Shown one piece after another: positions 1-63,565 of a stretch of DNA of 64,000 nt. Origin of the DNA: Loxodes magnus (taxonomy: Eukaryota; Ciliophora; Karyorelictea; Loxodida; Loxodidae); NCBI GenBank assembly GCA_946699065.1, contig CAMPDV010000058.1, positions 62,001 to 126,000 on the forward strand. The letters are read 5' to 3'. Below the pieces are notes generated by a model. The model made no database searches. It saw only the letters and a list, made by a program, of their open reading frames with translations, and was not told where the DNA came from. The translations under genes and the position numbers were made by a program. Every line of letters starts with the position of its first letter. The first letter of the stretch is position 1.

Positions 1-317
1 CATGATTCGGAGAAATTAAAAAAAATTGAATAAATTTTAATTTTCTATAAATTAAGCTCGAAATTTATAAAAATAATTCATTCTATGAAATTAAAATTAC
101 TTGAACTAAATTTATTTTTGGAACTATTTAAAACTTTTTAGTTATTTTAAATCGGCTTTCAGTTAAAAAAATATTTAATTTTTTTTAAATATGAACAATT
201 TATTGTGAATGCAACTTACTTGGAATTCTCAAAAGTGATTTTCTTATTAATTTTTTTATTAAATAGGTTTATATTTAGCTTAATGTTAAAAATAAATGAT
301 TATCTGAAATTAATTTT

Positions 318-2114
318 TCAATTTTCGAAGAGGTCTTTTCCCTTAATATAAGAATTGATTTGAGCATTTTCAGAAATACCAGGATATTATCGATCCCTAT
401 TCTCCTATATCATCTGCTGACTTTAAATCTACTCTTACTTTTGACTTTCATTTTCTTGATAATCTTATAGATTTCATTTATTTTAATAAATGTTCTAAGA
501 AATCATATCATTACTTTCTTAATCTTTCCAATTTTATTGTAAATCTTGCTTTAGCTAATTAAAAGATAAAACAGGTTTATTAATTTGCCTATTGTTAGAG
601 TTTTCCCAAACGTTTTCATTATTCCAAGTAAAATTACCTTAGATTTAGTTTTCTTCTTAATAGCTTCAATTAGGAAACGGTTCTTAATCCTAATTTTCCC
701 TCCAACTTTATGAATTTTAATTTTCTTATTTATCTCATGAAAATTGATAATTTTACTGATTATCCGAGATATGAGCGAAATTATTTAAACTATTTCTATT
801 TCTGAATCTTCTATCACCTTAAAATCGATTTCTTCCTCTTCTATCATACTAATTGTAGTTTATTTAATAATTTCGTTCTGAATTGAAATTATCTCTTATA
901 TTTTAATCATTAATGATGTTATTTGGCTAATTAGCTGCATAATATGGCTGCCATCCTTCTCCTACTTTATTTTTTGCCAAAATAAGCGTCAAACGCTGAA
1001 AATTAGATTCCTCTATTATGTTTTATAATCCAGAATTTTTATTAATAGGTTCCCATTCTTAAGTTATATGAACTTAACTTATATCTTACTTGAATCAAAA
1101 TTTTAATTGCTAAGCAAGTTAGTAACCAACCCATCTTGCTTTATCAATATTTTTTTAATCTCCAATAATATGCAAAAGATTAAAATTCTAATTCATAGCT
1201 AAGTTCATTCCCTATTATACGAAATCTTAAGGAGGTTGTTATTTGTTAACAAAGATTTCATAAGGCTATTTTAATCGTCTAACTTTTTTATACTGCCTCT
1301 TATCAACATATTCTCTTTATTTATTATCTTACTTATTCTCTTATTTATTTTGCTACTTTGGCTCTTAAAACTAAGCTTCTTCTATAACTTTAAATTAAGG
1401 TTTTAGCTTTCATATCTAGTCTATGTTAGAAAATTACAACAGATTTATTATTTAAACTTTTGCTTTTTATAGTTCCTCTTAATTAGGTTAAAAGCTAGGC
1501 ATATGGATTTAATTTTCAGTAATATATGAATATTAATTCAAATGCTACTAAACTTCTTAAATTCATGCTTATTTTTCTTAATAGTTGCTAGGCTACTTAT
1601 TTAAATATGTTTATAGTCGTTAATTTGTTTAATCTTCTTCTTGAATCATATAACGACAATATTAATCATATAAGGTTTATACCTCTTTTTAATTTATTTC
1701 GTTTTAAAAAAGAATCTCAGATGTAATTTCCTTTACAATTTTTTCACACATTTTATTTAAATTATTGAAGGCAAACTTCGCATCTTTTATCTTTTTTTTC
1801 CATTCAATGTTATTATTTTATATTTAGCTTATCCTTTCTTTATACTGGCTAATCTCCTTGTCATTTGTATAGTCTAATACTTGGCTTTATTATGATGCTA
1901 AATTCTTAACTATATCAAATAGTTGATTGTTAAGGGTTAATCTTTAAGTTTTTATTTGATCTTTACATTACAAGAGACAATAATACTCATCGCCTGAAAA
2001 TTTCTACTTAATGCATGTTAAACAAAAAGTATGACCACATGCTAGAATAACCGGTTTTCTCATTTCAATATCGTAAGCCAAGCAGCAAATTTTACATTTG
2101 ATATATTCCTGCAT
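318..2114 (-). CDS. RING / coiled-coil / Alba / RG-rich / Trp-rich protein, copy A
   Basis: A 599-codon frame with UAA/UAG as Gln and UGA as Trp. The start is the ATG at 2114 just before the RING, and the stop is the UGA at 318-320 after the residues GKDLFEN. The RING cysteines and histidine are C7, C10, C26, H28, C31, C34, C46 and C50; the last pair is spaced C-x3-C instead of the usual C-x2-C. Residues about 60-280 are Gln/Lys/Glu-rich coiled coil. Residues about 284-390 look like an Alba nucleic-acid-binding domain: PYEIFVNK, GMNLA, HIIGD, and a closing GEGWQP like the G-Y-Q-P end of eukaryotic Alba proteins. Residues about 425-442 are RG/RN-rich (RRGRNRFQGDRRF). The rest is disordered, rich in Gln, Asn and Trp. 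Internal UGAs align with Trp, Tyr or Glu in copy B. Inferred role: RNA-binding regulator or ubiquitin ligase. No frameshift was found, so it is probably functional. Confidence 0.75.
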
Positions 2115-2237
2115 ATTATTATAATTTCTATTTTATTTTTAATTTATATACAAATTACAAAAGAAACTTACTATAAAAGTTAGTTTCATTGTAATTTTAA
2201 AAATAAACTTCAGATTTAAATAAATAAAAGCAACTAA

Positions 2238-3177
2238 ATAAAAATGGTAGAAGGGTTCAACAAAGGCTTTTATACCACCTCCTAAAAAGGGGAGAGAAAG
2301 TAAGAACCCTCATCTTTAACTCACACATCTTCTTCCTAGAAATAATCTTCTTCTCAAAACCTTCAAGAATAATAGAATCAACTAGGACCTTCCAGACCAA
2401 CCTAAAAGATGGGACAAAAGCGCCAAAAGGCTACCTCTATGACACCAACTGAAGAGGAAGGACCTAGAAAGGTGCTGGAGACGCAAGAAGCAGCAGCCGT
2501 GCGAGAGTTTGCGATGCCATAGTTCCAGGAATAACAGGTATAAATTTTAGTCGCATTCGCTGACCTGAATGAGGAAGTAAAGAAGCTACGATTAGAGAAT
2601 AGAGCTCTAAAAAATCAAGTTACTGAGCTCAAGGAATGGAAAGAAAGTTTCTGGAAGTCTACAATCGAGAGCAAAACACTTTCTTCAGGGAAATGGGATT
2701 GCTGGAGCAGAGAACAACTGTGCTTGAAGAGAACAGCAAGTAGCAACAGTAGTAGGAATTCAAAGTTAGGACAATTCAAGATCCAATGGATATAGAAGGA
2801 GCTACTACGTTACCGAGGAGTCCAGACAAGAAATGAATTAGGAGAAAACCAAGATGTTTTGTATGCAAACAAACTGGACATAAATATAGACAATGTTAGA
2901 AATTTAAATTAATTAAATAATAGTACTGAAATAGAAAATAATATTAAAAATAATAGTACTAATATTAGGATAAGATTAGACGAGAATTCTATATCTAATT
3001 TTATCCGTCAGGAGGTCAAATCTACAAACCGAAGTGGTATACAATCTAAGGCGACTGAAGAAAGAGTCCTGAAGGGAGCTGGTTCCAGCCAGGTTATCAA
3101 ACTGGTCCTGTGAACACGAGGTTGAAAGTCCTCCAAGTTCACTAAACTCCAATTTAAATTTTTTAATCTATTTTAGT
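2238..3177 (+). mobile_element. ZK element a: Gag-like zinc-knuckle retroposon, frameshifted
   Basis: About 940 bp bounded by a perfect 15-bp direct repeat (AATAAAAGCAACTAA, 2223-2237 and 3178-3192), which I read as a target-site duplication. It is nearly identical to ZK-c at 21040. The ORF opens at ATG 2244 and runs through a Pro-rich start, a coiled coil and a CCHC knuckle (C-x2-C-x4-H-x4-C, codons from 2855). A one-base deletion near 2652-2660 relative to ZK-c shifts the frame before the knuckle. The region has more G+C than its surroundings. The paralogous empty site in the copy-B duplication shows that this is an insertion. Confidence 0.8.
2244..2920 (+). pseudogene. Broken Gag-like zinc-knuckle ORF of ZK-a
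   Basis: The ORF matches ZK-c codon for codon from the ATG at 2244 to about 2652, with UAA/UAG read as Gln. There copy a has one G fewer than copy c within the codons for EKSFWEVY. Downstream the knuckle (CFVCKQTGHKYRQC) continues in a different frame. As annotated, translation would therefore not reach the zinc knuckle. The in-frame UGA before the knuckle (residues DKK-UGA-IRRKP) is shared with ZK-c. Confidence 0.7.
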
Positions 3178-3192
3178 AATAAAAGCAACTAA

Positions 3193-4510
3193 TCATTTTT
3201 AATCATGGTTCTTTATTAATTTTACTATTTAAAGTACATCTTACTCTTCTTTCTAGCTATTTTACTTTAATTATTTTAAGTTGTTGAATGGTAGATTTGC
3301 AATAAAATAAAATGCAAGTCTAATTGTAAAATTATTTAAAGGAATATATAGGAATGACAGCAATCTAAATGTCTATGATAACTTATAAGAGCATTTGATT
3401 GACTATATTTTGAAAATAATTAATTAATTTTAATTTAAAAATAAGATATTATGTAATAAAGCATTTATATTTACATTTTTTAATTATACTTATATTCAGG
3501 ATTTATTTAATATAAACGTAAGAAAATTTATTTAATTTTACTTAGACAGATAATATAATATAATATAATATAATTTATTCTTTAATTTAATTAAAAAAAT
3601 ATTTGTTTAATTATAAGCAAATATGTATTAATAATAAGCAAATAAATAGCTTTTTTTTAATATTTTACATCTAAAAGATTCTAATTTTATAATAAAATAA
3701 AAATATTACAATAAAGAATGTTAATTTAATTTATATAAATAAGTCTAAATAGTTATATACCTTAAATCAAATTTAATATTATTCTTAATTATTTTATTTA
3801 AACATTTGCTTAGAAATAAACTCTAAGTAAACATTAATATAGTTATGTGTATAATTTAAGCAAATAATTTAATAATTTGCATCTTCTTATTTTTTATACA
3901 TTTATTTAAATTTATTTGCTTTGCAGAAATTATCTATATTTTAAGTCAGAAAATACAATAAGATATTTTCTATTTCTTTTAAGTTAGAAAGATTAAATAA
4001 AAAGAGAGCTTATTTATTAAATATAAGCACATATTGCTACAGCTTCAATTTTAGTACATATGAATATAAGATAAAAGCATCTAAATAATGTATATTTATT
4101 CTACTTTCTTTCTATAATGATTTTAATATAATAACTGTTTAATTGAAAGGAGTATTCTACAGGCTTTACATTAATATTCTAATTTTATATTAAAAAATAA
4201 TAAATAGTATAAATATTAAATAGAAATATTATATTTAACTATTTAATTTAAATATTTTAAAATGTAATAAATAGATATTATTAGAGAAAGATAATGTTTA
4301 CTAATATTGTAATTAGATAGATATGTCTATAATAAAGAAATTTAGAAAAGCTATAGATAAATATTTAGTAAGTTTATTATTTTGTTAATTGTGTAATTAA
4401 TATTTTAAATTAGTTTATATTTAAACTATTTTAAACTATTATCTTCCATTTAAATTATTATCAGTAATAATATAATTCAACTTCAAATTATATAAATAAA
4501 TAAATAAATA
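3193..4510. other. AT-rich stretch, no gene recognised
   Basis: The first roughly 200 bp belong to the segmental duplication. The remainder is simple, very AT-rich DNA with short TAATA runs (for example 3548-3575). No conserved frame, RNA or repeat boundary was seen. Confidence 0.6.
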
Positions 4511-4517
4511 TTATTAT

Positions 4518-4550
4518 AGAGTGTGTAGCACCTCATTGGCGCGCAGCTCT
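4518..4550 (-). repeat. 33-bp hairpin repeat, copy 1
   Basis: One of three dispersed copies (others 9105-9137 and 51528-51560). On the minus strand it reads AGAGCT, then GCGCC, a 5-nt loop, GGTGC, and ends near CACTCT. The inner stem GCGCC/GGTGC pairs with one G-U; copy 2 has GCACC/GGTGC. The change keeps pairing, which suggests a structured RNA or an element terminus. Confidence 0.55.
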
Positions 4551-4712
4551 TTCAATATTAATATTTAATATTAAGAAAAATGTTCTCATGTTTCTTGTTA
4601 AAATTCTAGAGGTCTAATGAGTCATGTCAGCTTCTCCAAATGGGGAATCTTCTTATTAAAATTTATTCTAAAATCTTAAGTCAAATGCTTCAGTCTTCTT
4701 GAATAAGGTCCA

Positions 4713-4762
4713 AATAAGAATTAGTTATTAAGTCGGTAATAAGAATTAGTTATTAAGTCGGT
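4713..4762. repeat. 25-bp direct tandem duplication
   Basis: Two adjacent identical 25-bp units starting AATAAGAATTAG (4713-4737, 4738-4762), immediately left of the 175-bp dispersed repeat. A similar AAATAAGAATTA sequence precedes the other copy of that repeat at about 63340. Confidence 0.85.
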
Positions 4763-4769
4763 AATTAGA

Positions 4770-4945
4770 AGGCTCAGTCAAACTTTCATACTGCTAGAGA
4801 GAACCCTCGGGGTAAGTTAGGTATGTCTCAACGGAGCTTATCCACCCTTCCCCGTGGTGGCATCTAGTGCGAGACTACTCGAAATGCAGTATACACTGCA
4901 CCAGATTACCTACTAATTTGTCTGACGCGGGTGACATCCATTTTA
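4770..4945 (-). repeat. 175-bp GC-rich dispersed repeat R, copy 1
   Basis: About 70-75% identical by eye to 63365-63537, and far richer in G+C than its surroundings. Shared blocks include GAGAACCC, CATCTAGTGC, CACCAGATTACCTACTAAT and GATATCC/GACATCC. Copy 1 contains GCAGT-ATAC-ACTGC and CCACC...GGTGG self-complementary segments. Orientation is set as minus because copy 2 then begins with an ATG and lies upstream of a minus-strand coding region. Relative to copy 2 there are frame-breaking indels, so coding is doubtful; it could be an old SINE or an RNA gene. Confidence 0.6.
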
Positions 4946-5373
4946 TATTATATATAATAAAAGTTTTATAAAGCTTTTATAGTTGGTATTATGTATTCTT
5001 AATCAGATTCTCAATTTATAAAGAAATTTTAATTATAAGGAAAAATTATAAAAATTTCTAAGAAAAATAGTATAATTTAGTAATTACTAATAAATTATTA
5101 ACTTAACTAAACACTTATACTGAGTAAACGAATATAAATGAGACTAAATAATCAATTTTATTTTATTTACTTAACTACTACTAAGATTTTATATATTAAA
5201 ATAATTCTAGAATTAAAAATCACAATAATAATAAATAAATTCTCATTGCTTAGTATAATTTTAAATAAAATATAAAGAAATTTAATGATATGTAATTAAA
5301 AATTTTTACAACTCTTAATTTTTATTTTCAATATCTAAATAAATTTTTTAATTGTACTTAAATAATAGTTTAT

Positions 5374-6231: not shown

Positions 6232-8232
6232 TAACATAAGATTCGAATTTACATAAATTTAAGATTATTAAGCTAGCATTGCTTTTTCTTCACCATAAAT
6301 CTAAGAATTTTTACTTATAAATTTGATTTAAGAGCTTAATAAAAAGTTATATTAAATTAAAAAACTTTTACTCTATTAAATAAAAATATAATTTAGTTGT
6401 ACTAAAAAGAAACTTTATTTAATAAATTATAAAAAGATTTGATTTAATTAAGGATATTCTAAACTTAATATATTATTTCTTTTTTATTCAAATATATTTT
6501 ATTATTTTATATTTATTTAACCTTTAAAATATTCTGTAAGTGAATACTATAATTTAAATAATTAATTAAAAAATAACTAATTTAAATAAATAAATCTGAT
6601 TCTAAACTTTAATTATAAATAGTTTATAAAACAAAAACTCTCAAACTTATAATGATTTAATTTTTAATTTAGACAAATATAAAATTATCTAATTTTCAGA
6701 AATAAATTTATTAAACTATTAAAGTAACACTCTTTTCAAATAATACTAGTATAAAATAGTAAAGTTTAATTTTAATTTTCAATTTTGATGCAAATTTAAA
6801 AATAAAAATTAAATATTTTATAAGATATAATATCTTAATTTTAAATTTGATTTTTTATTTAATTAACTTATTTAAAAAATATAAAATTTAGAAAAATTAT
6901 CAAATTAGAGTTTAAAATATTAAAATAAAATTATTTAAATTAATTATATAAACATATTTAATAAGAAAAAATTGATATCAATTAAGCATGATCAAGATAT
7001 TTCTAATTTGCTAAATAGAAAATAACTTTAAAATAAACTTATTTAAAATTTTCTAGAATTAAATTATAATATTTTAAATTAGTTTTAAATTAAATAATCT
7101 AACATTAAAGAGGAATATTTTATAATACGCCTTTAAAACATTTTAAATTTAACTATTAAAAACAAAATAAAATTAAAATAATTGGAAAGATAATTATAAT
7201 GATTAAGAAAAATAATTTTATAAATTAAAGCAAAATAATTTCTATCAATTAAATAATATTTTTTAAAGAAAGTTATTTATATTTCTATTAAATGGAATGC
7301 TTATTTAAATCTTCCTTTATTTATTTCTAAATTTAAATTTAATTATCATATTTACCTTTTCTTTAGAAATATTATTATAAACTTCATTGGATAGTTATTA
7401 TTTTATACTTTTTAGCTTTCAAATTATCTCTTTAGCTTTGCTCTATAGGGATACTGTTTAATAATAGAATTTCATAAAGAATCTTTTTATTTTAAGCTAG
7501 TAAAATACTATCGAAAGCTTAGATATTAGTTAGTTATTTCTATATTTTTCAATGTTATTATTTTAATTATTGTGAAAGGAAATTTAGATAATTTGCATAA
7601 CAGATCATCCACTTATAATTATTAATTCCCTTTTCATCTTTTATTTTTATAATCTTATTAAAATAATTCAGATGACAATCAAATAAATTTTTAATAAATT
7701 TGCATATCTATTTTAAAGTTTCCTTTTATTAATTTAGAAATACTTATTTAGTCTACTAAGTTTATCTCAAAATTATTTTAAATTTATTTCAATAATTTAG
7801 TTTTAATAGTCACTTTTAAACTAAAATAACCAAATTTTTATTTATAAAACATTTATAGATCTTCAAAATTTATTTGTATCTCCCTTTTTAGTAACTAATA
7901 AAAAGTAAAATAGTTTATTTAGTTTTTAGTTTTTTAATTACTTAATACTAAACTTATTTCTTTATTTATTCTTGATATACTTAAACTATTCATTTGTAAG
8001 AATATCTAAATAATATTTATCTCTTTTATTAAAACTTAAAAATTTATAATTTTAATTAATCTTCCAATTTTAAATTAAATTTGCTTATTATTTTAGCTTA
8101 TTATTATTATATTTATGGCTTAGTTGAAGTAAATTTTAGATGCTTGGATATTTAATTATTAAATGCTTAAATGATTAAGCATTTAAGCAGGGTGTTTAAA
8201 CAATTATTATTTTTGAAATAAAATACAAAAGT
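6232..8232. other. AT-rich stretch, no gene recognised
   Basis: About 2 kb of low-complexity A/T-dominated sequence. No conserved reading frame, knuckle, tRNA or repeat boundary was found on either strand. Confidence 0.6.
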
Positions 8233-8304
8233 TCCACATCCGGGACTCGAACCCGGGTCTTTCGGGTGAAAGCCGAATATCCTAACCAGCTAGACTAATG
8301 TGGA
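8233..8304 (-). tRNA. tRNA-Glu (anticodon UUC)
   Basis: 72 nt. The acceptor stem TCCACAT/ATGTGGA is perfectly paired. The anticodon stem TTCGG/CCGAA encloses the loop CTTTCAC, giving anticodon UUC. The T arm CCGGG-TTCGAGT-CCCGG is perfect and carries a canonical box B, and the D arm has GGTTAGG. No CCA is encoded. On the minus strand a run of four Ts follows directly, a pol III terminator. The body is identical to 14458-14529 although the flanks differ, which argues for function. Confidence 0.95.
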
Positions 8305-10542: not shown

Positions 10543-11103
10543 TCACACGAAGTTCAAAGCTAATGAACCACACAATGTCTTTACACTTAATTCACTAAGT
10601 TTTTGCTTCTTTATTACTTGATCTTCTTCTTACTCTTGAAGACTTCTTTTAATTTTGAGTGTAGTTAGGTTTTCCTAAAAATTATTTTTAAGATTGTATT
10701 TTTCAACTAAGTTTTCTAACAGAATTTTAACTTAGTCTTTGTTAAGTCCTTGTATCTCCTTCTGGCATTCTTCATATAACTGTTTTTTATCTGTATTTAA
10801 TTTATTGTAAAGATTGAGCATTATCTATTCCTTCTCTTCAGTTCATTCAAAATTTTTGAGAGGTAATAAAACTTATAACCATCTCTTTTTGCATTATCTT
10901 CCTATTCGAACTTCATTATTATGAAAATCAGAATTTAGATCTCTAGCGACTTTAGCCCACATCACTTTCTTACTTGAAGTATTCACTATCTAACTCAGTA
11001 AATAATCCTCCTACTTTGTCCAGTTTACTCTCACATATTTTCTACCACCCAAAGTCCATTACTAACAAATCTCTGCTTATACTTTCTGTTCCGTTATCAA
11101 CAT
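10543..11103 (-). CDS. Myb/SANT-domain DNA-binding protein (186 aa)
   Basis: Intact frame from ATG 11103 to UGA 10543-10545, with UAA/UAG as Gln. Residues about 26-80 form a Myb repeat: VNWTKQEDYLL, MWAKVARDLN, then RIGRQCKKRWLQ, close to the R-x-G-K-Q-C-R-x-R-W signature of Myb repeat 2. The next repeat begins LLPLKNFE-UGA-TEEKEQIML, so the UGA at 10843-10845 occupies the first conserved Trp of that repeat (W-T-x-E-E). The other Trps are TGG. The C-terminal third is a charged helix ending in a KKQK basic patch, a possible nuclear signal. Likely a nuclear transcription or chromatin factor. It lies isolated in AT-rich DNA, and no frameshift was found. Confidence 0.8.
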
Positions 11104-14100: not shown

Positions 14101-14457
14101 CTGAGGGTTGATTTAATAATATAATAATTAAGCTTTATTTATAAATAATAAAATAAAGGTATCAGATATATTCTAATTATATAACTTAAAGATTTAATGA
14201 AGATATAAACTAAGCTTACTATATTGATCTAGTTATATTTATACATCTAGTATAGTATCTAAAATAATTTAATTATATAATCATTTTTAAAGTTAAATAA
14301 CGCACTAAAATTATTTACTTTTAACTAATTTACTAAAAAGCATTGTTAATTTCTAAAATGTATCTATAGCTTTTAAATGAGTATGCTATAAGTAATTTGT
14401 TTTAAATATCAAATTAAACTTATTTTTGTATTTTAAATCTAATTAAATTATAAACAT
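11104..14457. other. AT-rich stretch, no gene recognised
   Basis: About 3.3 kb. A palindrome-like TACGTAATGA/ATTACGTAAT cluster sits at about 11130-11165 just upstream of the Myb gene start and could be regulatory. Otherwise no conserved frame or RNA was seen. Confidence 0.5.
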
Positions 14458-14529
14458 TCCACATCCGGGACTCGAACCCGGGTCTTTCGGGTGAAAGCCG
14501 AATATCCTAACCAGCTAGACTAATGTGGA
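14458..14529 (-). tRNA. tRNA-Glu (anticodon UUC), second copy
   Basis: Identical over all 72 nt to the tRNA at 8233-8304, with all stems intact and anticodon UUC. Flanks differ apart from a few bases, so it is a dispersed gene and not part of a recent large duplication. Only a T3 run follows on the minus strand, a weaker terminator than that of the first copy. Confidence 0.93.
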
Positions 14530-17204
14530 GTTATTTTATTAATTAGGAATTGGTTAAATATTATGGTATTGGAAGTTTCTAAATTAGATATAATACAATA
14601 CAAGAATAAATTCTTATATTATATACAAATCTAAATATTTATTAAAGCATTGCTCTAACTTTAAATTAGTTAAATAGCTATATATTATATATCTCTATAT
14701 TGCTTTCATACAAATATAAAAGTTATTTAAAACTATAGAAAATCTTATTTTTAAATAGTAACTTAATAAATCATTCTCTTTAAATCTAAAAACAAGTCTT
14801 TAACTTAAAGCTTTAAATATAAACTATTATAATCATTTACTAAGGTTAGTCTTAATTAATAAAAACTAACCAAAATTAATTTAAAAATCTTAAAAAATAA
14901 AATTATAAATAAAGCTTTTTTATTATAATGTAAATTGCTTGCTATAGAATAAGAATTAGATTTACTAAATTTATCATAGAATAAGTTTAAACTAAAATCT
15001 GTATAAGATTTTTAATTTCCTAAGCAGTTCTAGTTGAGAAAGAGAAGATATAATAGAAATAGTTTAAATTAATTAAATTCTTATTATTTTTATTTTAAAG
15101 CTCAATGCATATGTGATGCACCAATTTTTTCTTAAATGATAATAAGCAAAACATTAAAAATATTGCGAAAGTCGGAACAAAAAAATAAAAAAAGATTTAT
15201 CTTTAATTTAAAATTTCTAAAGCTTTTACCTTCTAACTTTATAGGTAAATAATTTAATAGAAGAAAGAATTAAAAAAAATCTAAAAATAAATTGATCTTT
15301 TTACTATTAACCACAAAAATAATTTCTATATATAAAATAGATATTTATCAAAACTTATTACCTCTATTTAACAAATTAAAAAGATAAAATTAAATTTTTT
15401 AAATGGAATGAAAATAATTTTACATTCTCCCTAATTTTATTTATTTTATAGAGCAAATATATATTTAGAATTATTTATATTTATTAACTATTTTATTAAG
15501 TTTATTTTAAATAAGCTTAAAATTAGGAACTAACTTAAATAAATTTAGGAATTCAAAAGGATGCTTATCCTATTATAATGAATGTGATTATTAAGCAAAC
15601 CTTTAATAATAGTTAGCTTCATTACAAATTTTATATTTTATTTCTTTTTGTAAATTAAATAAAAATTTTATTTTTATCTAATTTTAATTAATGTGCTTAT
15701 GGTATGCTTGGAATATATAAGAAAAATAAGTTTAAAAAAGCTGAAGAACTTCTATAATATAAAATATCATTATATTAAGAAATAAAATTAAACTATCATA
15801 TATAACTTCTTTTTACAATTTTAGCTATAAAAATTAAAGCATAAGATTAAGATACTTCTAAATAAATTAAGCAAAGAAAAATTAAATTATAGTAGATAAT
15901 TCAAATATCATACAGTCTTTAAACATTTTTGATAGAAGTAATTTAAAACTCTACTCATAATACTTTCAAATAAATTTAAATTTAATAAGATAAAAATAAA
16001 AGAAGTATCTAATAAATATAATAAACATTATTATTCAGATATCATTTCATTTATAGAAATACCAAAACATTTAATTTTATTATTTTATGGCTTAAGAAAT
16101 TTAATCTTCCTTATTCTTTAATACTAAGATAAAAAATTAATTTTTAGCTTTTTTTATAAAAATTTAAAAAGAAAGAAAATAAATAGGATTTCTATAAGTA
16201 ACTAGAGTATTAAGCTTTTTAAAATTTTATATTTAAAATTATTTTTAAACATATTAGATTCCTAATTCATAGTTATCTATTAAATGCAGGTATTTTAGTA
16301 TTTTTTAAATCAAATTATTAAGTATATCCTTTAAATCCCCTGATATATTCAAAAGAATTATTAATTGAATAAACAATCTAAGCTTATTCTATGCTAACAA
16401 ATTTAATTGTAAAATTTAAATCTTATAAGTTATGATATATTATGAAGCTAGGATAGATAACTTTAGGACACATGAATCCTTTGAAAAGAATTAGCTTTTA
16501 TCAATATTTACAATAAGCGATATATTAAATTCCTTAGCTAATTTATTAAAAGATCTGAATAACTTTTTCAAATTTTAAATAGTTAGGATATTTTCTCATT
16601 AATTCTATTTATCATTAGAACTACATGCTTTATGAGTAAAAATATTGATTAAAGGTCTTAAGAATAAAAATAGTTCTTTAGGTTATTTATTATCTGTTTA
16701 AGAATATTTGTTTAATGAAATGTAATATAAAAAAGTTTCTTTTATAAATAATCAATTATAATCAATAGATTTTACTCAAATAAATCATAATTCTTTCTTT
16801 TTATTCATGTATAAATTAAAAATATAGCTAAAAATTAAACTTATATAATTAAATATGAAGATATAAGCTTCAATCCAAAAATTTACGAAAATAATTTAGA
16901 GTAAATGTAAAAATTTATTAATTTAATTTATTATTTGTTCAATAAGTTTAGCTTTAGTTATATAAATAGAAGTTTTATCATTATATAAATAATTCTTAAG
17001 CCTATTATTTTAAGAATTAAATCTTATTAGTGTATGTCTTAAATTTTTCAGCTTGTAAAATGTTTATTCTTCTTTTTCATTTTAAAGTCTATAGTGAATG
17101 TATTTTTTATTTTTTATTCGTATAATGAACTTTCGGAATTATTTTATTTTTAATTACATAGGATTAGTATATTTTAATGCAAATAATAACTTATTTTATT
17201 TAAA
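14530..17204. other. AT-rich stretch, no gene recognised
   Basis: About 2.7 kb downstream of the copy-B RING-Alba gene and upstream of tRNA-Glu. No conserved frame or repeat was recognised. Confidence 0.55.
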
Positions 17205-17209
17205 ATTTT

Positions 17210-19516
17210 TCAGTTTTCGAAGGAATCTTTTCCTTAAATCTCAAAGGGAATTTTAACATTTTCCGAAATACCTTGATTTTATTAGATATTAGTCTCCTTT
17301 ACCACCTACTAATTTTAATTGTCCTAAAATATTTTACCTTCGTTTTCCTTTTACGCTGCTTCTTACTAAATTTATATGTTGCTTTTATTTTCTCCCTCAT
17401 TCAATTGATTAAACTCTTCTTAAGCATAGCTCCACGAAATCTAATTACTTTCTTAGTTTTCCCAACTTTATTAAAAGTTTTAATTTTATTAATTAGACTA
17501 AAATAAAGGCTCATTGGCTCGTTCACTTTTATTTTCTTCCCAGATGTTCTCTTTATTCTAAGGTTAATTACCCCAAGCTTCGTTTTCCTTTTACGCTGCT
17601 TCTTACTAAATTTTTATGTTGCTTTTATTTTCTCCCCGATTCAATTGATTAGACTCTTCTTAAGCATTGCTCCACGAAATCTAATTACTTTCTTAGTTTT
17701 CCCAACTTTATTAAAAGTTTTAATTTTATTAATTAGACTAAAATAAAGACTCATTGGCTCGTTCACTTTTATTTTCTTCCCAGATGTTCTCTTTATTCTA
17801 AGGTTAATTACCCCAAGCTTCGTTTTCCTTTTACGCTGCTTCTTACTAAATTTTTATGTTGCTTTTATTTTCTCCCCGATTCAATTGATTAGACTCTTCT
17901 TAAGCATTGCTCCACGGAATCTAATTACTTTCTTAGTTTTCCCAACTTTATTAAAAGTTTTAATTTTATTAATTAGACTAAAATAAAGGCTCATTGGCTC
18001 GTTCACTTTTATTTTCTTCCCAGATGTTCTCTTTATTCTAAGGTTAATTACCCCAAGCTTGGCTTTCTTATTACTAACTTCATTATTGAATTGGTTCTTA
18101 ATTTGAATTATCTCCTCAATTTGAGGAATTTTAAATTCTTTTGTTATCTCATGAAGTTTATAACTCTCTCTAATTATCTGACGCATGTGCGAAATTATTT
18201 TGTCTATTTCTATTTCTGAATCTTCTATCACCTTAGAATCGATTTCTTCCTCTTCTATCGAACTAATTTTAGTTTTATTAATAATTTCGTTGTGGGTTGA
18301 AGTTATCTCTTTTATTTCAATCTTTAATGACGTTGTTCGGCTAATTAGCTGCATAATATGGCTGCCATCCTTCTCCTATTTAATTCTTATTCAAAATAAA
18401 CGTTAAACGGTAAAGAATTATTTCCTCTTTTTTGTTTTATAATCCGGAGCTTTTATTAATAGGTTCCCATTCTTAAGTTAAATGAACATTACTTACATCT
18501 TACTTGAAATAAAATTGTAATTGCTAAGCAAGTTAGTAGCCAACCCATTATGCTTTTTCTATATTTTTTTCATCTCCAATAATATGCAAAAGATTAAACT
18601 TCTAATTCTTAGCTAAGTTCATTCCCTGCTCTACGAAATCTTAAGGATGTTGTTATTTGTTAACGTAGATTTCATAAGGCTATTTTAGCCTTTTAACTTT
18701 TTAATACACGTTCTAATCAATAAACTATTTTTGCTTATTATCTTGATTATTTTATTCTCTTATCACCTAATCCTTTGCTTCTTCTATTACATTAAATTAA
18801 GGCTTTAGTTTTTCTATCTCGTCTATGCTAGAAAATTATAACTGATTTATAATTAAACTTTTTGCTTGATGTATTAGCTCTTAGTTAGGTTAAAAGCTAG
18901 GCATCTAGATTTAATTTTCAGTAATTTATGAATATTTGCTTAAATACTATTTCACTTCCTTTATTCAATTTTATTTTTCTTCCTAGCTGGATATTTACTT
19001 ATTCAAATATTCTTTAAGTCGTCCATTAGTTTAATTTTCTTCTTAAAGTATTCAATGTCAATACTAATCAAATAAAGTTTATATCTCTCTTTAATTGGCT
19101 TAGGTTATTTAAGAAATTCCAGTTGTAAGTTCCTAAACTAAATTTTAATATGTTTAAATTAGGTTGTTGAAGGTTAGCTTAGCATCTTTTAGCTTTTTCT
19201 TCCATACGTTGTTAGTATTTTATATTTAGTTTATCTTTTATATAAACTACTTAATCTCCTCATCCTCTTTATAGTTAATCACTTGGTTTTATTATGGAGA
19301 GTGGGATTTAACTATTTCCAACAGTTGACTGTTTAAGATTAAATTCTACATTTTGGTCTTTTTTACGCAATTCTAGGGACAAACAAACTCGCAGCCTTGT
19401 TAAGTTTAAATCATGCAAGTAAAGCATATAGAATGACTGCATGCTAGAATCATTGGCTTTCTCTAATCAGTATCATAAATCAAGCGACATCTGAAGCACT
19501 TAAGCAAGTCTTCCAT
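17210..19516 (-). CDS. RING / coiled-coil / Alba / RG-rich / Trp-rich protein, copy B (768 aa)
   Basis: Same architecture as copy A in one uninterrupted 769-codon frame: ATG 19516, UGA stop 17210-17212 after GKDSFEN. RING residues are C7, C10, C26, H28, C31, C34, C46, C50 (KCFRC, ACSHSICFTC, CPQNC). A coiled coil follows, then an Alba-like domain at about 280-386 (PYEIYVNK, HIIGDEKNIEKAQWVGYQLA, GEGWQP) and an RG/RN-rich segment (RRGRNRFQGDRRFRNRNR). The tail has recurring Trp motifs (NWGDN, AWGNQ, NIWEEN, QSWENQ, IPWSN). Residues about 486-726 are three 80-residue repeats. Internal UGAs align with Trp, Cys or Tyr in copy A. Known Alba proteins bind RNA or DNA and often carry RG tails; the RING suggests E3 activity. 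The fusion and its role are inference. Confidence 0.78.
17341..18060. repeat. 240-bp in-frame tandem triplication inside the RING-Alba gene
   Basis: Three units (17341-17580, 17581-17820, 17821-18060), each 240 bp = 80 codons, nearly identical. The left unit is slightly more diverged. They are absent from copy A. The period keeps the gene frame, expanding the Trp/Asn/Gln-rich tail by 160 residues. Confidence 0.9.
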
Positions 19517-19860
19517 GATTTATAATATTTACTATTAACAAATTTATATACATTTTACATGATAAACCAACTGTAAAATAATTATTACATTGTAATTATA
19601 AAATTATTTTAGCTTTAAATAAAGTAAAGCTATCTATTTAGCTTTTAGCTATAAGCCTTTAGTTTAATTTATTTTAATTTCATTGTATTTTCTTTGCTTT
19701 AAATAACTTTAATTATTAGTTTTGAAAACTTTATATTTAATTAAAATGAATGCGAAGATGTAAAATTATATAAAGGAATATATGGGATAAGACAGTTGCT
19801 TTTATAACTATGATAACTTATAGGAGTTTTTGGCTGATTATACTTATATAATTTACTAAC

Positions 19861-21035
19861 TTGATTAAAAATTAATCAGCAAACAAAACCTTTATTAGTT
19901 AATTTTTTTACTTTGGTATACTAAAAACAATAATTCTCTTAGTGCAGTTCTAAGACAATCAAATTTTAATAGCCAGTTGTTATAAAATAATTTGTTCTTC
20001 AAACATCTAAAAAATTGTAAATGTATTTTAAAATTAATAGATATTTATTTACAATCTAAGCATATAAAATGAATTTTTATTGTTCTAAATTACAAATATT
20101 TCTCTTCTTTTACTTCTAAAATAAATTATTATAGAGATTAAGCAAAGTATCTTCATAGTGATATAAAGTTTATATGTTCTAAAGGAATTTATGCCTCTTT
20201 AGTTATTTTTGTTAATATTTGATTTCTAAAAATATAAAAGAATCAGATTAAAGTATTTAGTATAATAAGAATTATTAGCTTATCTAAAGCCTTTAGACTC
20301 TTTTATCCTATATTAAAATTTTAAATTTTAGATATTGTCTACTTTGGTCTTATTTATCTTATATTTTGAGTTTGATTAGGATATTTAGGTTTGCTTAGAT
20401 TTATTAGAGATTGAAAGATAGAAATAACTTGTTAGCTTTTAATTTATTATAAATAATTACCAGTTGCAGCTTCTAAAATTATAAGATAATACCTAAATGA
20501 TGTTATTTATTTCTTCTCTTCAATTTTATTATAATTTACCTTTAAATTCTTTGGAATAACTAAAAGGATAATTTCTACTTACTTAGATACATAATCTCTA
20601 TTTTATATAATAGTAGTTGCTTAAAACTTTCTTTTATAATAATTAATAGTCTTTAGATTATTAAGTTGACAGATCGTTATAATTAAGACATTACACTAGA
20701 ATTTTACCTTTATAGCTTCTATAGATATTAATAATAATGCATAATTCATTTTACTTAATTTATAAATTTAGTTTTTTAGAGATTTTACAAAATCTAAACA
20801 GTACTTTATTTATATATCAACTACTATAAAGCTTACCTTTCCCTAATATTTTCTATTTTTTTGATATATCATTTTTTTAAAAGTACATAGCCTTACTCTT
20901 TTTATAATATTAGATAAAAGAATACATTTTTTATTTTCTTTATAATTAATAAAAATTTAAAAAAGTTAATAGAATTAAGCAAAATTGTAATAAAGCCAAT
21001 AAAAATAGCTTATTTACTTTATTAAGGACTGTAAA
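19861..21035. other. AT-rich stretch, no gene recognised
   Basis: Nothing beyond low-complexity AT-rich sequence was recognised between the duplication end and ZK-c. Confidence 0.55.
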
Positions 21036-21039
21036 TTAT

Positions 21040-21970
21040 TGGTAGAAGGGTTCAAGAAAGGCTTTTATACCACCTCCTAAAAAGGGGAGAGAAAGTAAGA
21101 ACCCTCAGCTTTAACTAACACATCTTCTTCCACGAAATAATCTTCTTCTCAAAACCTTCAAGAATAATAGACTCAACTAGGAACTTCTAGACTAACCTAA
21201 AAAATGGGACAAAAGCGCCAAAAGGCTACCCCGATGACACCAACTGAAGAGGAAGGACCTAGAAAGGTGCTGGAGACGCAAAAAGCAGCAGCCGTGCGAG
21301 AGTTTGCGATGCCATAGTTCCAGGAAGAACAGACATAAATTTTAGTCGCATTCTCTGACCTGAAGGAGGAAGTAAAGGGGCTACGATTAGAGAATAGAGC
21401 TCTAAAAAATTAAGTTACTGAGCTCAAGGAATGGGAAAAAAGCTTCTGGGAAGTCTACGATCGAGAGCAAAACACTTTCTTCAGGGAAATGGGATTGCTG
21501 GAGCAGAGAACAACTGTGCTTGAAGAGAACAGCAAGTAGCAACAGTAGTAGGAATTCAAAGTTAGGACAATTCAAGATCCAATGGATATAGAAGGAGCTA
21601 CTACGTTACCGAGGAGCCCAGACAAGAAATGAATTAGGAGAAAACCAAGATGCTTTGTATGCAAACAAACTGGACATAAATATAGACAATGTTAGAAATT
21701 GAAATTAATTAAATAATAGTACTGGAATAGAAAATAATAAGAAAAATAATAGTACTAATATTAGGATAAGATTAGACGAGAATTATGTAACTAATTTTAT
21801 CCGTCAGGAGGTCAAATCTACAAACCGAAGTGGTATAAAATCTAAGGCGACTGAAGAAAGAGTCCTGAAGAGAGCTGGTTCCAGCCAGGTTATCAAACTG
21901 GTCCTGTGAACACGAGGTTGAAAGTCCTCCAAGTTCACTAAACTCCAATTTAAACTTTTTAATTTAGTAA
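21040..21970 (+). mobile_element. ZK element c: intact-looking Gag-like zinc-knuckle retroposon
   Basis: Nearly identical to ZK-a over its full length from TGGTAGAAGGG to the AACTCCAATTTAAA end. Flanking repeats are weak (GTAAATTAT / GTAATTTAT, one mismatch), so a target duplication is only suggested. Unlike ZK-a it keeps one frame through coiled coil and knuckle, so it is the better template of the pair. Confidence 0.75.
21204..21854 (+). CDS. Gag-like coiled-coil / CCHC zinc-knuckle protein of ZK-c
   Basis: 217 codons from ATG 21204 to a UGA at 21852; the frame is also open upstream to the element start without another ATG. A Glu/Arg-rich helical segment (DLKEEVKGLRLENRALKN) predicts a coiled coil, typical of ORF1/Gag oligomerisation. 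A basic linker with an in-frame UGA precedes the knuckle at 21651-21692, C-x2-C-x4-H-x4-C (CFVCKQTGHKYRQC). It ends with the family block YW-x-RK ... L-C-N-x-F ... G-Q-I-Y-K. Reading UGA as Trp the frame continues further, so the exact end is uncertain. Likely a nucleic-acid-binding retroelement protein. No RT domain. Confidence 0.7.
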
Positions 21971-23678: not shown

Positions 23679-24171
23679 AAAAAGCAAAAAAGCAAAAAAG
23701 CAAAAAAGCAAAAAAGCAAAAAAGCAAAAAAGCAAAAAAGCAAAAAAGCAAAAAAGCAAAAAAGCAAAAAAGCAAAAAAGCAAAAAAGCAAAAAAGCAAA
23801 AAAGCAAAAAAGCAAAAAAGCAAAAAAGCAAAAAAGCAAAAAAGCAAAAAAGCAAAAAAGCAAAAAAGCAAAAAAGCAAAAAAGCAAAAAAGCAAAAAAG
23901 CAAAAAAGCAAAAAAGCAAAAAAGCAAAAAAGCAAAAAAGCAAAAAAGCAAAAAAGCAAAAAAGCAAAAAAGCAAAAAAGCAAAAAAGCAAAAAAGCAAA
24001 AAAGCAAAAAAGCAAAAAAGCAAAAAAGCAAAAAAGCAAAAAAGCAAAAAAGCAAAAAAGCAAAAAAGCAAAAAAGCAAAAAAGCAAAAAAGCAAAAAAG
24101 CAAAAAAGCAAAAAAGCAAAAAAGCAAAAAAGCAAAAAAGCAAAAAAGCAAAAAAGCAAAAAAGCAAAAAA
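23679..24171. repeat. Perfect 8-bp microsatellite (GCAAAAAA)n
   Basis: About 61 tandem copies of GCAAAAAA with no interruption seen. Because 8 is not a multiple of 3, each frame repeats every 24 bp, and the long Lys/Gln/Ser or Phe/Leu frames across it are by-products. It lies between ZK-d and the coiled-coil gene at 24418. Confidence 0.97.
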
Positions 24172-29989: not shown

Positions 29990-30199
29990 TTTAGATTTTA
30001 AAGAGTATTACTTATAAGGCTTTTTTATTATCAAATTTAATTAATTAGTATAAATTAATTTTTAGATGAACTTTTAGTATCTGTATGAATAAAATAGGAT
30101 TATATAAATATATTGCTATTGTATGTAATTATTGGTAGAGTAAGTCTTTAAATCAATATTTAAAATTTAAGTATATTAAGTTTTTAATTTTTTGGATTA

Positions 30200-30517
30200 T
30201 TAATTAATTTCAACTAAAAAATTTTTGGACCGGAAACTCCTTTCCGATCGCACGACTCGACGCTCTCTTTTTATGGAATAACGGGGATATCTTGTTGTGC
30301 TCCAGGCACAGCTGCTAGAGAGCTCCATCGCTATGAGCAGCCAGGCTTCAAGCCCCTACCAAGAGCGGATAATCTCAAAGACAGTGTTCCATTCAGAAAA
30401 TGACTCTGACCTGGGACTTTCTCAGCGACAGGAAAGGAACTTGTTCCTAGTCATATAACCAGAAAGTGTTGTCACGAAGGCCATTCTCAGCTCCCACCAT
30501 CTTTTCAATTTTTTTTT
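30200..30517 (+). mobile_element. 300-bp GC-rich retroposon-like repeat, copy 1
   Basis: One of three copies (others 53384-53692 plus, 60960-61270 minus), about 90% identical and roughly half G+C in AT-rich surroundings. All begin TTTCAACTAAA and end near CATCTTTTCA. Flanked by an imperfect direct repeat (TTTTTTGGATTAT / TTTTTTTGATTAT). It carries two overlapping open frames under the variant code; neither shows clear codon conservation between copies. No poly(A) tail and no clear pol III boxes. Confidence 0.8.
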
Positions 30518-30586: not shown

Positions 30587-30658
30587 TTCACATTAGTCTA
30601 GCAGGTTAGAATATTCGGCTTTCACCCGAAAGACCCAAGTTCTAAACCCGGATGTGGA
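30587..30658 (+). pseudogene. tRNA-Glu pseudogene
   Basis: 72 nt aligned end to end with the tRNA-Glu(UUC) genes. The anticodon arm is unchanged (UUC), but the T arm is broken: CCAAG faces CCCGG, and the loop reads TTCTAAA instead of TTCGAGT, destroying box B. There is also C to T at position 2 of the acceptor stem. It lies about 70 bp after the 300-bp repeat. Confidence 0.85.
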
Positions 30659-30929
30659 ATTTTTTATATTTTCGTCAAAATACAGAAACTAAAGTAATTA
30701 AATTTGTTTATAAATATAAATATCTTAAAAAAACTCATTTATAATAGTTTGCTTATACTTAATTATTCGATCTCTCTTTCTATTATTTAAAATTTCTTAT
30801 AAAATTTATTATATGCAAATTCCAATAAAATAAGTTAAATTTTAAAGGTTTAAATATACTTAAATTAATATTTTTAAAACTAAAGCATTGACGATAAAAT
30901 CAATATTATTATAATATAAATAAATAGGG

Positions 30930-53340: not shown

Positions 53341-53383
53341 AATAAACTATTTTTGAATTTGCTTTTTAGGAACTTTTTAATTA

Positions 53384-53692
53384 ATTAATTTCAACTAAAA
53401 AAATTTTGAATGGAAACTCCTTTCCGATTGCACGACCTGATGCCCTCTTTTTATGGAATAACGGGGACATACTGTTGTGCTCCAGGCACACCTGCTAGAG
53501 AGCTCCATCGCTATGAGCAGCCAGGCTTCAAGCCCCTACGAAGAGCGGATAATCTCAAAGACAGTGCTCCCTTCAGAAAATGACTCTGACCAGGGACTTT
53601 CTCAGCGACAGGAAAGGAACTTGTTCCTAGTCATAAAACCAGAAAGTGTTGTCACGAAGGTCATTCTCAGCTCCCATCATCTTTTCAGTAAT
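53384..53692 (+). mobile_element. 300-bp GC-rich retroposon-like repeat, copy 2
   Basis: Flanked by a perfect 17-bp direct repeat, TAGGAACTTTTTAATTA (53367-53383 and 53693-53709), the clearest target-site duplication in the window. The 72-residue frame from GTG 53477 exists in all three copies, but so does a second frame starting METPFRLHD. Changes between copies are mixed synonymous and nonsynonymous in both frames, so coding is undecided. Confidence 0.88.
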
Positions 53693-53877
53693 TAGGAACT
53701 TTTTAATTATTTTACTTAATTTGAGTTTTATAAATCAAAATACCAAGATTTTAATGCTATTAGTATATTTTGAATTTTTCAAAGAGGACTTTTTCTTAAC
53801 TTCTCTATTTTATTCTTACTTTTTTGTGTAATTTCTTTTGCCATTTATTTTAATGGTCTCATCAAACTCTTATGAAT

Positions 53878-60197
<6,320 letters not shown>

Positions 60198-60239
60198 TAC
60201 TTAAATGTTGAGATTTTTAGCTTTTCTTAACTTTTAATC

Positions 60240-60935
60240 AGGTTAGTGCAATCATTTTTTTATAAAGATGAATGCAATTACCTTTTTATATTGGCAGGCT
60301 ACTAATAATAATATTTTCAGTTCTTGATAAAGTTTTCTATTTATAAATTACATTTTCTGTTATTCAGAGTAAACTAAGACTTCTTCATATTCTTCTTTCT
60401 TCTATTATTCTTATTTTTTTACAGGCTTAGCATTGTAGTAAAGTATGTTAGTTTTTGATTGAGTTTTTCTTGCTTTGCCTCTACATTTTTTTTAAAATCA
60501 TTTATTTTACTTTTTAATTTTCTATAATCATATTTTGTTATATTTAACTATCGATTGTGATTACTCATAAAGTTACTGTTCTATTATTAATTCTTTTATC
60601 AGTTAACGGCATCCTATTATTAACTCATTATTTTAGTCGACAGTATTATTCATTAATTCTCTGATTTTTTCTCCTTAATAGTAAATTGTTTTTTTCATAC
60701 ATTGCTATTAATTTTTACATAATATACAGTGTATAAGAGTTTTTTGGCCTATTTAATTTTAAAATTTTCCTATCTCTACAGTTCCAATCATAAATTTATC
60801 TTATAATGAATAATTTGATTCCTCTTGTTTCTAATGCTTTTTTTCCACTTCTTATGCTGCCTTTCTTCTCAAGTTTCTAAGTTAATTATTTGAGAAACAG
60901 GCAGATTATTCATTTTTTTACTCTTATAAACTAAG
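60240..60935 (-). mobile_element. ZK element i, degenerate
   Basis: Minus strand: starts MNNLPVSQIINLET near 60915, then a Lys/Gln-rich coiled coil, a partial knuckle (CQAC) and LWITENVIYKQK, which matches LWINENGVYRQR of ZK-b. The pieces lie in different frames. It sits between the (AAT)n tract and copy 3 of the 300-bp repeat. Confidence 0.5.
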
Positions 60936-60959
60936 AGCACTTAAATCTACTACATTAAT

Positions 60960-61270
60960 AATTGAAAAGATGGTGGGAGCTGAGAATGACCTTCGTGACA
61001 ACACTTTCTGGTTTTATGGCTAGGAACAAGTTCCTTTCCTGTCGCTGAGAAAGTCCCAGGTCAGAGTCATTTTCTGAAGGGAACACTGTCTTTGAGATTA
61101 TCCTCTCTTCGTAGGGGCTTGAAGCCTGGTTGATCATAGCAATAGAGCTCCCTAGCAGGTGTGCCTGGAGCACAACATGATATCCCCGTTATTCCATAAA
61201 AAGAGGGCATCAGGTCGTGCAATCGGAAAGGAGTTTCCATTCAAAAATTTATTTAGTTGAAATTAATTAA
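60960..61270 (-). mobile_element. 300-bp GC-rich retroposon-like repeat, copy 3
   Basis: Inverted relative to copy 2. Flanked by 19-bp repeats TTAAATCTACTACATTAAT (60941-60959) and TTAAATCTATTACATTAAT (61271-61289), one mismatch. About 90% identical to the other copies. Confidence 0.88.
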
Positions 61271-61319
61271 TTAAATCTATTACATTAATTAATTAGTCAA
61301 TTAATTAATCATTTTTATA

Positions 61320-61870
61320 TTTTGCCCATAGGTTTAAAAGAAAAATTTGATTTGTTGTATTTCAATTTCTTCTCTTAATTTCTCCCTGCTATGCATTTAA
61401 ATTCAAATCTTGTTCCTTTTTCCAGATTTTTTCAGCTCATAAAGAATAAAATTCAGTATCACTTTCTTTATTCCTAGAAGCTAATATTTGTCTGATGCTA
61501 TTTCTTATTCTGTTTTTGTACGTTTCCATAAAAATGCTGCATACTGTCGCAAATTTAGCATCTTTTTTTGGTCTTTGAAATGTTCTTTCTTGTCTTTCTA
61601 TTGCTATGTAGTTTCTTTTAAAGACTTCTACAAATTTTTTCAATTTACAGGAGTTTTGAATCTAATTATACTCAATTTTTCTTGTCTTATTTTCTTTTTA
61701 TTTAAATATCATTCTTTAATCCTATCATTCGTTCATACTCTCAGGCTTTACCTCTTCAATTTACCTTATGGCCTTCATCATCATCTTCATGATTTATGAG
61801 GTCTTTACTTTCTTCAAATATTTCTTCTATGTTTTTGAATCATTTTCAAATATTTTAATTATTTGATGAG
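61320..61870 (-). mobile_element. ZK element j, degenerate
   Basis: The minus strand encodes a coiled coil (AIRQIEEVKPESMNEW) and a knuckle CQICDSMQHFYGN followed by Val in place of the last Cys. The 68-residue standard-code frame at 61437-61643 is in a neighbouring frame and is probably not the original protein. The right boundary is not defined. Confidence 0.45.
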
Positions 61871-62162
61871 TTGGTATATTAACTATATTATCTATTTATA
61901 GTACATTCACTCTATTTCAATATTATCTAAATCAAATTTATCAAAATTTATATTGAATTATCGTACTTTGCTTTAATTGTTTATTTTTTATTATATTTTA
62001 GAAAATTAACTGAGTGGTCTTTTTTTCAGTTTTCAATGGAGGCATTGTAAGTTGTGTTAGTATTTATGTTTGGAATAATTACTTTAGTTCTTCTTGCAGC
62101 TCAATTTTTAGTATAATGAAAGTTTTTCTCGGTAAAGTTAAGATTTGGTAAGAGAAAATACT

Positions 62163-63245
62163 TCAGGTTTTCTTTTCTACTCTTATGAGGAAAATAAACC
62201 CTTTTTTAAAGTCAGGCATTTTATTAAACTACTAGATACTTTATTTTTTTACTTAGAGATTCTATTGTTCCAATTTTCAAAAAGCGACACTTAATCATTA
62301 TATTTTAATGGATACGGGTCTTTAAATTAATCATAAGATAAATTATATTCTATGAATTTTTTTAAAACTCTATATCTCTTCGAAGCGACTCGATTCATTT
62401 AACTTCTAGCAAATCTTTTCTTAACTCTCTGATTGTATATCATTTGTTATCTCACTGTTGAAAAATGGCTTGATTTCAGAAGCTAGCCACTCTAAATCTA
62501 TTTGTTAAGATTTTTCCATAGCTACTTAAGTATTCAATTTATAGTAAAGAATAGAAATATTTAAGTTTAACTGAAAGAAAGATTCTTTTTACCTTTTATT
62601 TAAGTCAACTACTCCTCTAGAATGTCCATAACCTGCTTGGATTTTCCATTATTCTTCTCACATAAAATTTAGATAATTGAGTTTATAAAAGAACTCAAAA
62701 TCATATTAAAGTTATCTTTTTATGCAATCTGATGAAATCAAAGCTTGAGGCTTACTCTAAAATAATCTCATTACGGTTTCTTCAAAATATGAGTCTAAAT
62801 TGAAATCTCTATTACAGTTATCTTCTTCTATTAAAAATTTCTTTTATGAATAAAATTAAATTTATATTAAGCTTTTATTTCGAAGACCAGATACTTTTAA
62901 AATACCTACTTTATATAAATCTACTTAGTATTAGTTAGCTTATAGCTTTTTTATTAAAGCATTAATATTAAACTTGAACCTGTCTTTCATCTCTAAATAT
63001 AACTGCAGCATATCCTTTAAGTAAAATTTTAATCCTTATTAAAATTAAATTTCTTTAATTATATATTCTTCTAAAGCTTAAAATGAATAAAATATAGAAA
63101 CTTATTGCTTTATAATATCAATAATATGTAGAAATTTTAGAAAAAAAAATTAAAGGAATGGATGGAACAAATCTTTGCAACGTTCTGAATTTACTTCCAA
63201 TTTTTAAGAAGTTCCTGATTTTATCTAAGGCCTTGAAGCAAATTC
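62163..63245 (-). CDS. Hypothetical protein, about 360 aa, domain not recognised
   Basis: A continuous minus-strand frame under the variant code, ending at UGA 62163-62165. It reads naturally: LYLEMKDRFKFNINALIKKL, NLDSYFEETVMRLFQSKPQ, QAGYGHSRGVVDLNKRQKES, IDLEWLASEIKPFF. Internal UGAs (for example in NFM-UGA-EEQWKIQAG) would be Trp. The frame stays open upstream to the R repeat at 63365-63537, but the first in-frame ATG is at 63011, so the start is unresolved; an upstream short intron is possible. A soluble, mostly helical protein of unknown role. Confidence 0.45.
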
Positions 63246-63364
63246 TTGGCGATTCTTGCTTATAGAAATATATCAGAAGAATATTCCCGCTTTATCCGTC
63301 AAGAGACTATTATAAAATGCAGCAAAGCGAGAGTTAAATAAGAATTATTAATTAAAACATTATT

Positions 63365-63537
63365 AGGTTCGTCAGTCAACCGTTCATACAGCTAGCGAGA
63401 ACCCTTGGGTAAATTAGGCTTATCTCTTGCGATCTTTTCCACTCTTCCTCGTGTGACATCTAGTGCAAGATTACTCACAATACATTATACACTTCACCAG
63501 ATTACCTACTAATTCTTCTGACCACAGCCGATATCCA
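63365..63537 (-). repeat. 175-bp dispersed repeat R, copy 2
   Basis: Homologous to 4770-4945. Read on the minus strand it opens with ATGGATATC, and one frame gives DVTRGRVEKIARDKPNLPKG, which looks protein-like. Copy 1 has indels relative to it. It lies directly upstream of the 62163-63245 coding region. Confidence 0.6.
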
Positions 63538-63565
63538 TATTTTTTTTATAATATAGCATAATTTA

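Follow-up and report, generated by a model that had tools for sequence, protein, structure and literature searches.

The window, by which we mean the whole 64,000-nucleotide stretch of Loxodes magnus DNA analysed here (C58:62001-126000), carries on its minus strand a short Myb gene that can be read through only under a variant genetic code (Table 1). Translated with NCBI table 27, the gene runs from its ATG to a final UGA, and its frame contains 11 UAA or UAG codons. Translated with table 6, the frame breaks at codon 87, where a UGA (10845-10843) lies well inside the coding sequence.

Table 1. Features of the window and of related tRNA loci elsewhere in the assembly (positions are those of the window unless a contig is named)
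Feature	Position	Strand	Remarks
Myb gene	11103-10543	minus	186 codons plus final UGA, NCBI table 27
Start codon ATG	11103	minus	Myb gene
First Myb repeat	10867..11031	minus	PF00249 match, residues 25-79
UAA, codon 70	10894..10896	minus	Gln of R-I-G-R-Q-C
Sense UGA, codon 87	10843..10845	minus	First Trp of second Myb-like repeat
Second, divergent Myb-like three-helix repeat	10696..10845	minus	About residues 87-136; c-Myb alignment and model helices
Terminal UGA, likely stop	10543..10545	minus	Homology stops at the same point
RING-finger gene region	510..2231	minus	In-frame UGAs; zf-RING_5 28.1 bits, cut-off 27.9
Paralogue of 510-2231	17924..19630	minus	In-frame UGAs; RING 16.9 bits, below cut-off 27.9
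tRNA-Glu(UUC), gene 1	8231-8304	minus	Two of the three genes score equally
tRNA-Glu(UUC), gene 2	14457-14529	minus	
tRNA-Glu(UUC), gene 3	30587-30659	plus	
Tandem array, 66 tRNA-Trp(CCA) genes	C148:157283-173067		Unit of about 241 bp; loci L130, L131, L133, L134
Dispersed Trp-like tRNA genes	C110:361709-473962		Loci L124, L125, L127-L129
Dispersed Trp-like tRNA gene	C7736:22195		Locus L126

The surrounding DNA is AT-rich and repetitive. Measured in 2-kb steps, GC content is about 16-29%, leaving aside a 6.3-kb AAT repeat that spans 53880-60197 with some 2,105 units. A 2,166-bp unit is repeated in tandem from 32996 to about 48900 (eight copies per 300-base reference stretch, 100% identical), and smaller tandem repeats lie at 23679-24171 (AAAAAGCA, 61.6 copies) and 17338-18074 (a 240-bp unit, 3.1 copies). 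Copies of a roughly 320-bp interspersed repeat, 90-95% identical and lying in both orientations, occur at 30184-30513, 53376-53694 and 60956-61288, as well as in the Myb-bearing loci L029 and L042. The window also holds a direct duplication, in which the RING-finger gene region and its paralogue share 75% DNA identity and stand beside a 927-bp stretch at 96% (2245-3170, 21040-21966). In six-frame Pfam scans of 1-4990, 16801-21790 and 59900-64000, the only matches to exceed the cut-off were RING fingers in the first of these stretches.

With the internal UGA entered as W, a Pfam profile search matched the Myb protein to PF00249 (6.4e-7, 29.8 bits against a curated cut-off of 24.4) and to PF13921 (5.4e-6, above the Pfam cut-off), so that the profile check proposed in the original prediction finds both Myb families in the table-27 translation. 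The R2R3 chains of c-Myb, searched with the same W, match at 3e-7 and set the UGA opposite the Trp with which the following repeat opens. This placement, at the point where a second Myb repeat had been expected to begin with Trp, agrees with the family column described below. Single-sequence AlphaFold modelling produced two three-helix units at a mean pLDDT of 54.5, with helices at residues 30-41, 50-61 and 65-83 in the first (pLDDT mostly below 50) and at 89-102, 106-116 and 122-135 in the second (pLDDT by block of 64-83 across residues 81-140). A fold search with this single-sequence model returned nothing at E <=0.001; its top three chains came from yeast spliceosome structures, the best of which, at a non-significant E of 0.055, we take to be the Myb protein Cef1. 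The gene product is predicted to be a small, two-repeat, Myb-type DNA-binding protein. It shares with R2R3 Myb proteins such as c-Myb the two repeats and the motif R-x-G-[KR]-Q-C-x-x-R-W, but it is short, its second repeat is divergent and it belongs to a large and clustered family.

That family, judged by matches across the assembly, is large, locally amplified and clustered. The Myb protein has at least 150 matches, the number scored out of 571 candidates and one that possibly includes allelic or repeated contigs; the 150 lie on 34 contigs, with 42 on C69. Copies often lie 3-9.5 kb from a neighbour, which may point either way, and near-identical inverted arms (95-100%) are present in 8 of the 12 loci examined. 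We considered, and rejected, the idea that the copies belong to a mobile element whose inverted repeats carry Myb genes: neighbours within 10 kb are arranged in the same direction (16), convergently (14) or divergently (12), homology at L034 and L035 extends beyond the arms, and Pfam finds nothing in a 5-kb part of the spacer at L034.

The abundance of relatives allows the internal UGA to be examined column by column. We aligned 116 matches from loci L001-L103 of the same genome (111 distinct) with every UGA masked as X, so the alignment was unable to favour Trp. In the distinct relatives, 148 of 177 UGA codons fall in four otherwise mostly Trp columns, whose UGA/UGG counts are 40/67, 30/75, 32/76 and 46/39; a fifth column, in which W and N are commonest (23 each), takes 18 UGAs, and the remaining 11 lie elsewhere. 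W is enriched 41-fold at the UGA positions of this masked alignment, and UGG, used as a control codon, resembles UGA, with W enriched 26.1- and 26.7-fold. The concentration recurs among 52 representatives below 70% codon identity, which place 75 UGAs in the four Trp columns and 13 outside them, counting those in the fifth column.

The last of the four columns is the codon-87 site, where 22 of the 107 distinct relatives represented have neither UGA nor UGG and carry Q, G, L, M, E and other residues. The nearest copies reflect this spread: four have UGA (L009, L010, L012, L013), four have UGG (L014, L015, L016, L017), L011 has UUA and L018 has AUG. The copy closest by DNA, on contig C1662 (98.65% over 3,559 bases), encodes Leu there (TTA), so codon 87 can do without Trp. 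The original prediction had placed the UGA at an invariant Myb tryptophan; the Trp site stands, but the invariance does not. As the codon columns read, UGG and the internal UGA are synonymous.

Selection beyond the codon points the same way. Among the 46 members with UGA at the site, dN/dS is 0.233 downstream and 0.086 upstream (70 pairs at 60-95% codon identity), and among the 39 members with UGG it is 0.333 downstream and 0.253 upstream (45 pairs); the pairs are not independent. Purifying selection downstream of the UGA argues that it is not a stop at codon 87. Other genes carry in-frame UGA as well. A PF00069 profile search listed 136 kinase matches among 5,592 candidates, and by hand count 91 of the 136 listed have at least one UGA. 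We fetched 20 of them (17 picked for UGA and 3 without), in which UGA and UGG each supply the Trp of D-x-W-S-x-G 10 times, and 23 of their 34 UGAs lie in three Trp columns, with 11 elsewhere. Within the window, the RING-finger gene region and its paralogue share 54% identity across an alignment of 627 columns that spans several UGAs and lies partly beyond the certain gene. Nine columns hold UGA: three are UGA/UGA, one is UGG/UGA and five face Cys, Tyr, Gln or Glu codons. From this alignment, the two paralogues, genes distinct from the Myb gene, also seem to use UGA as sense.

These data bear directly on the reading in which UGA always terminates, as in table 6, the code of Tetrahymena, and the Myb copy is a pseudogene or has been truncated by a UGG-to-UGA change. 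The family is large enough that some copies could be dead, and the near-identical C1662 copy has Leu in place of Trp; however, the same UGA recurs in 46 of 107 distinct relatives with selection persisting downstream, and two-thirds of the listed kinases carry the codon too. We therefore consider permanent termination at UGA very improbable. An intron that hides the internal UGA is harder still to credit: an in-frame 48-nt GT-AG stretch does cover it, but the shortest GT-AG stretch across it is 37 nt, whereas introns of L. magnus are reported to have a mean of 19.3 nt and a mode of 17 nt, with 93% at or below 25 nt and multiples of three depleted (PMC11441545), and the stretch encodes the start of the second repeat, at which sister copies have UGG.

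Sense UGA in the Myb gene is complemented by UGA at its end. Scanning loci L009 to L052 for the motif GxQCxxxW gave 49 matches, some of them near-duplicates (L039, L041 and L044 gave none). In 47 of the 49, homology is ended by a UGA 104-122 codons past the GxQC motif; the exceptions are L052, which has no terminal UGA, and one L036 match cut by the end of the locus. Sense UGAs, where present, lie 7 and 19 codons past the motif, the stop UGA lies about 118 codons past it in many copies, and a further UGA between the sense positions and the terminal one occurs in a single match, in L042. The original prediction that UGA is also the stop is borne out in this family, and the scanned copies indicate that UGA is both sense and stop within one gene. 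Table 27 is associated with a depletion of sense UGA over the last 20 or so codons ahead of the stop; in the scanned copies the sense UGA stands about 100 codons before the stop, at positions where the Trp columns sit in any case.

For the other two reassigned codons, the clearest evidence is the Gln column of R-x-G-R-Q-C, where the Myb relatives have TAA in 39 cases, CAA in 26, TAG in 22, CAG in 20 and CAT in one. Averaged over all columns of this fast-evolving family, the Gln signal is weak: for UAA, Q is the highest residue at 1.9-fold, and for UAG, E (1.6) scores above K and Q (1.4 each). The assignment of UAA and UAG to Gln that had been proposed from the motif is upheld by its column, with little help from the average.

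Taken together, the columns and the stop scan support the predicted code, NCBI table 27, with UAA and UAG as Gln and UGA as both Trp and stop. Its Trp assignment draws on the concentration of UGA in Trp columns, the kinases and the dN/dS past the UGA, and is weaker in the RING-region paralogues. The Condylostoma magnum code, NCBI table 28, is the closest alternative in content, with UAR likewise read as Gln, UGA as Trp and a context-dependent stop, but there UAA and UAG also serve as stops. At the ends of the scanned Myb copies, a single family, we saw UGA, and neither UAA nor UAG, in 47 of 49, and the assembly, at 705,730,643 bases in 7,843 contigs, fits L. magnus, which leaves table 28 a negligible likelihood. 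The 2024 L. magnus paper gives a macronuclear genome of 706 Mbp, a micronuclear genome of 848 Mbp and code table 27 (PMC11441545), and we infer that the window is macronuclear DNA of this species. The suggestion of a karyorelict such as Loxodes was accordingly right as to source. Table 27 as defined for Loxodes and Parduczia has UAA and UAG as Gln, UGA as Trp inside genes and UGA as the stop at their ends, and we found no difference between it and the Myb gene. That table 27 applies to L. magnus macronuclear DNA, with the Myb gene read as above, is on the sequence evidence nearly certain; the code itself has already been published, and the finding is correct but known.

Under table 27, ribosomes would insert Gln at UAA and UAG and Trp at an internal UGA; at a UGA near the poly(A) tail, the release factor would prevail and end the protein, a distance rule taken from the literature. 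A comparable arrangement, with UAR as Gln, UGA as Trp and termination near transcript ends, is described for Condylostoma and the karyorelict Parduczia in Swart 2016 (PMC4967479), and the 3' UTR of L. magnus is reported to have a median of 41 nt (PMC11441545).

Reading UGA as Trp also requires a tRNA, and the assembly contains a striking source of candidates. Searching with a tRNA-Trp led to a single gene on C110, and searching again with that gene yielded 131 candidates, of which 40 were scored. Thirty-three of the 40 form a series of one gene every 241 bases or so at C148 157290-165004; the others are one opposite-strand copy at C148 155434, the 67th on that contig, and six genes on C110 and C7736. 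A further 33 copies were read at C148 165238-172996, which together with the scored 33 make an array of 66, a number that comes from the assembly alone. ARAGORN and an exact-match search concur on 40 genes in the stretches of C148 read, identical over 72 bases. At L134, 22 of 30 whole units are identical, and the 27 units of equal length differ at five spacer bases in total. A flanking 6-kb stretch of C148 has 19-25% GC, like the remainder.

The arrayed gene is called tRNA-Trp(CCA) by ARAGORN and a tRNA by Rfam, and TTTTTT follows it. Its anticodon stem, UUCGA/UCGAC, leaves the top pair, U27.C43, unformed and so has four pairs. Of the six dispersed genes, four have the anticodon CCA, and two neighbours on C110 that share the same body have CCT and CAT; all six show an extra T-stem base by alignment. 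Three of the CCA genes have UUCGA/UCGAA, with five pairs, and the one on C7736 has one pair broken. The five-pair tRNA-Trp(CCA) genes on C110 mean that the C148 array need not be the sole source of tRNA-Trp.

A four-pair stem of this kind has precedents, and tRNA-Trp(CCA) in this form is reported from elsewhere as a reader of UGA. PMC13092985 and PMC12005148 state a 4-bp-stem tRNA-Trp(CCA) for Blepharisma and Loxodes, citing other work, and PMC13092985 reports one for Condylostoma too. In Amoebophrya the tRNA-Trp has U26 and C42, called identical to that of Condylostoma (PMC12005148), and so shares with the Loxodes gene the anticodon CCA and an unpaired top of the stem with U on the 5' and C on the 3' side; the pair written 26C.42U for Blastocrithidia and Condylostoma (PMC13092985) has the reverse orientation to U27.C43. 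By analogy with these organisms, the arrayed four-pair tRNA-Trp(CCA) probably reads UGA. The alternative is that a cognate tRNA-Trp(UCA), whether nuclear or mitochondrial, takes the place of the four-pair tRNA in inserting Trp at UGA. None of the 46 tRNA-Trp-like genes read has a UCA anticodon (44 CCA, one CCT and one CAT, 31 of them from L134), a set that was found with CCA queries, with 40 of 131 candidates scored, and that comes mostly from one array. The reports of a 4-bp-stem tRNA-Trp(CCA) in Loxodes also speak against it, and Swart 2016 (PMC4967479) records no nuclear tRNA-Trp(UCA) found in Condylostoma. We consider a tRNA-Trp(UCA) unlikely.

As an arrangement of genes, the array recalls those of Entamoeba, in which tRNA genes also stand in tandem; there, however, according to PMC2652664, almost all tRNA genes are arrayed, in units that hold up to five genes set apart by short tandem repeats, whereas the Loxodes unit has one tRNA gene and the window's three tRNA-Glu genes are dispersed. 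Our literature searches, outside whose scope most subscription papers and supplements fell, found no paper that joins Loxodes with tRNA and 'tandem array' or Loxodes with Myb, and novelty is in both cases unproven; the main text of the 2024 L. magnus paper (PMC11441545) contains no word beginning 'tRNA'. A 66-copy tandem array of one four-pair-stem tRNA-Trp(CCA) gene is possibly new.

Tentatively, and at somewhat less than an even chance, we propose that this homogenised array of 66 four-pair-stem tRNA-Trp(CCA) genes sustains sense UGA by dosage, outcompeting the release factor except beside poly(A), and that a separate five-pair-stem tRNA-Trp would serve UGG. The Myb family of L. magnus offers a demonstration, from DNA alone, that one codon may be both Trp and stop in one gene. 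If the copy number of the array is real and its genes are expressed, the efficient reading of an ambiguous stop codon would become a measurable question of dosage.
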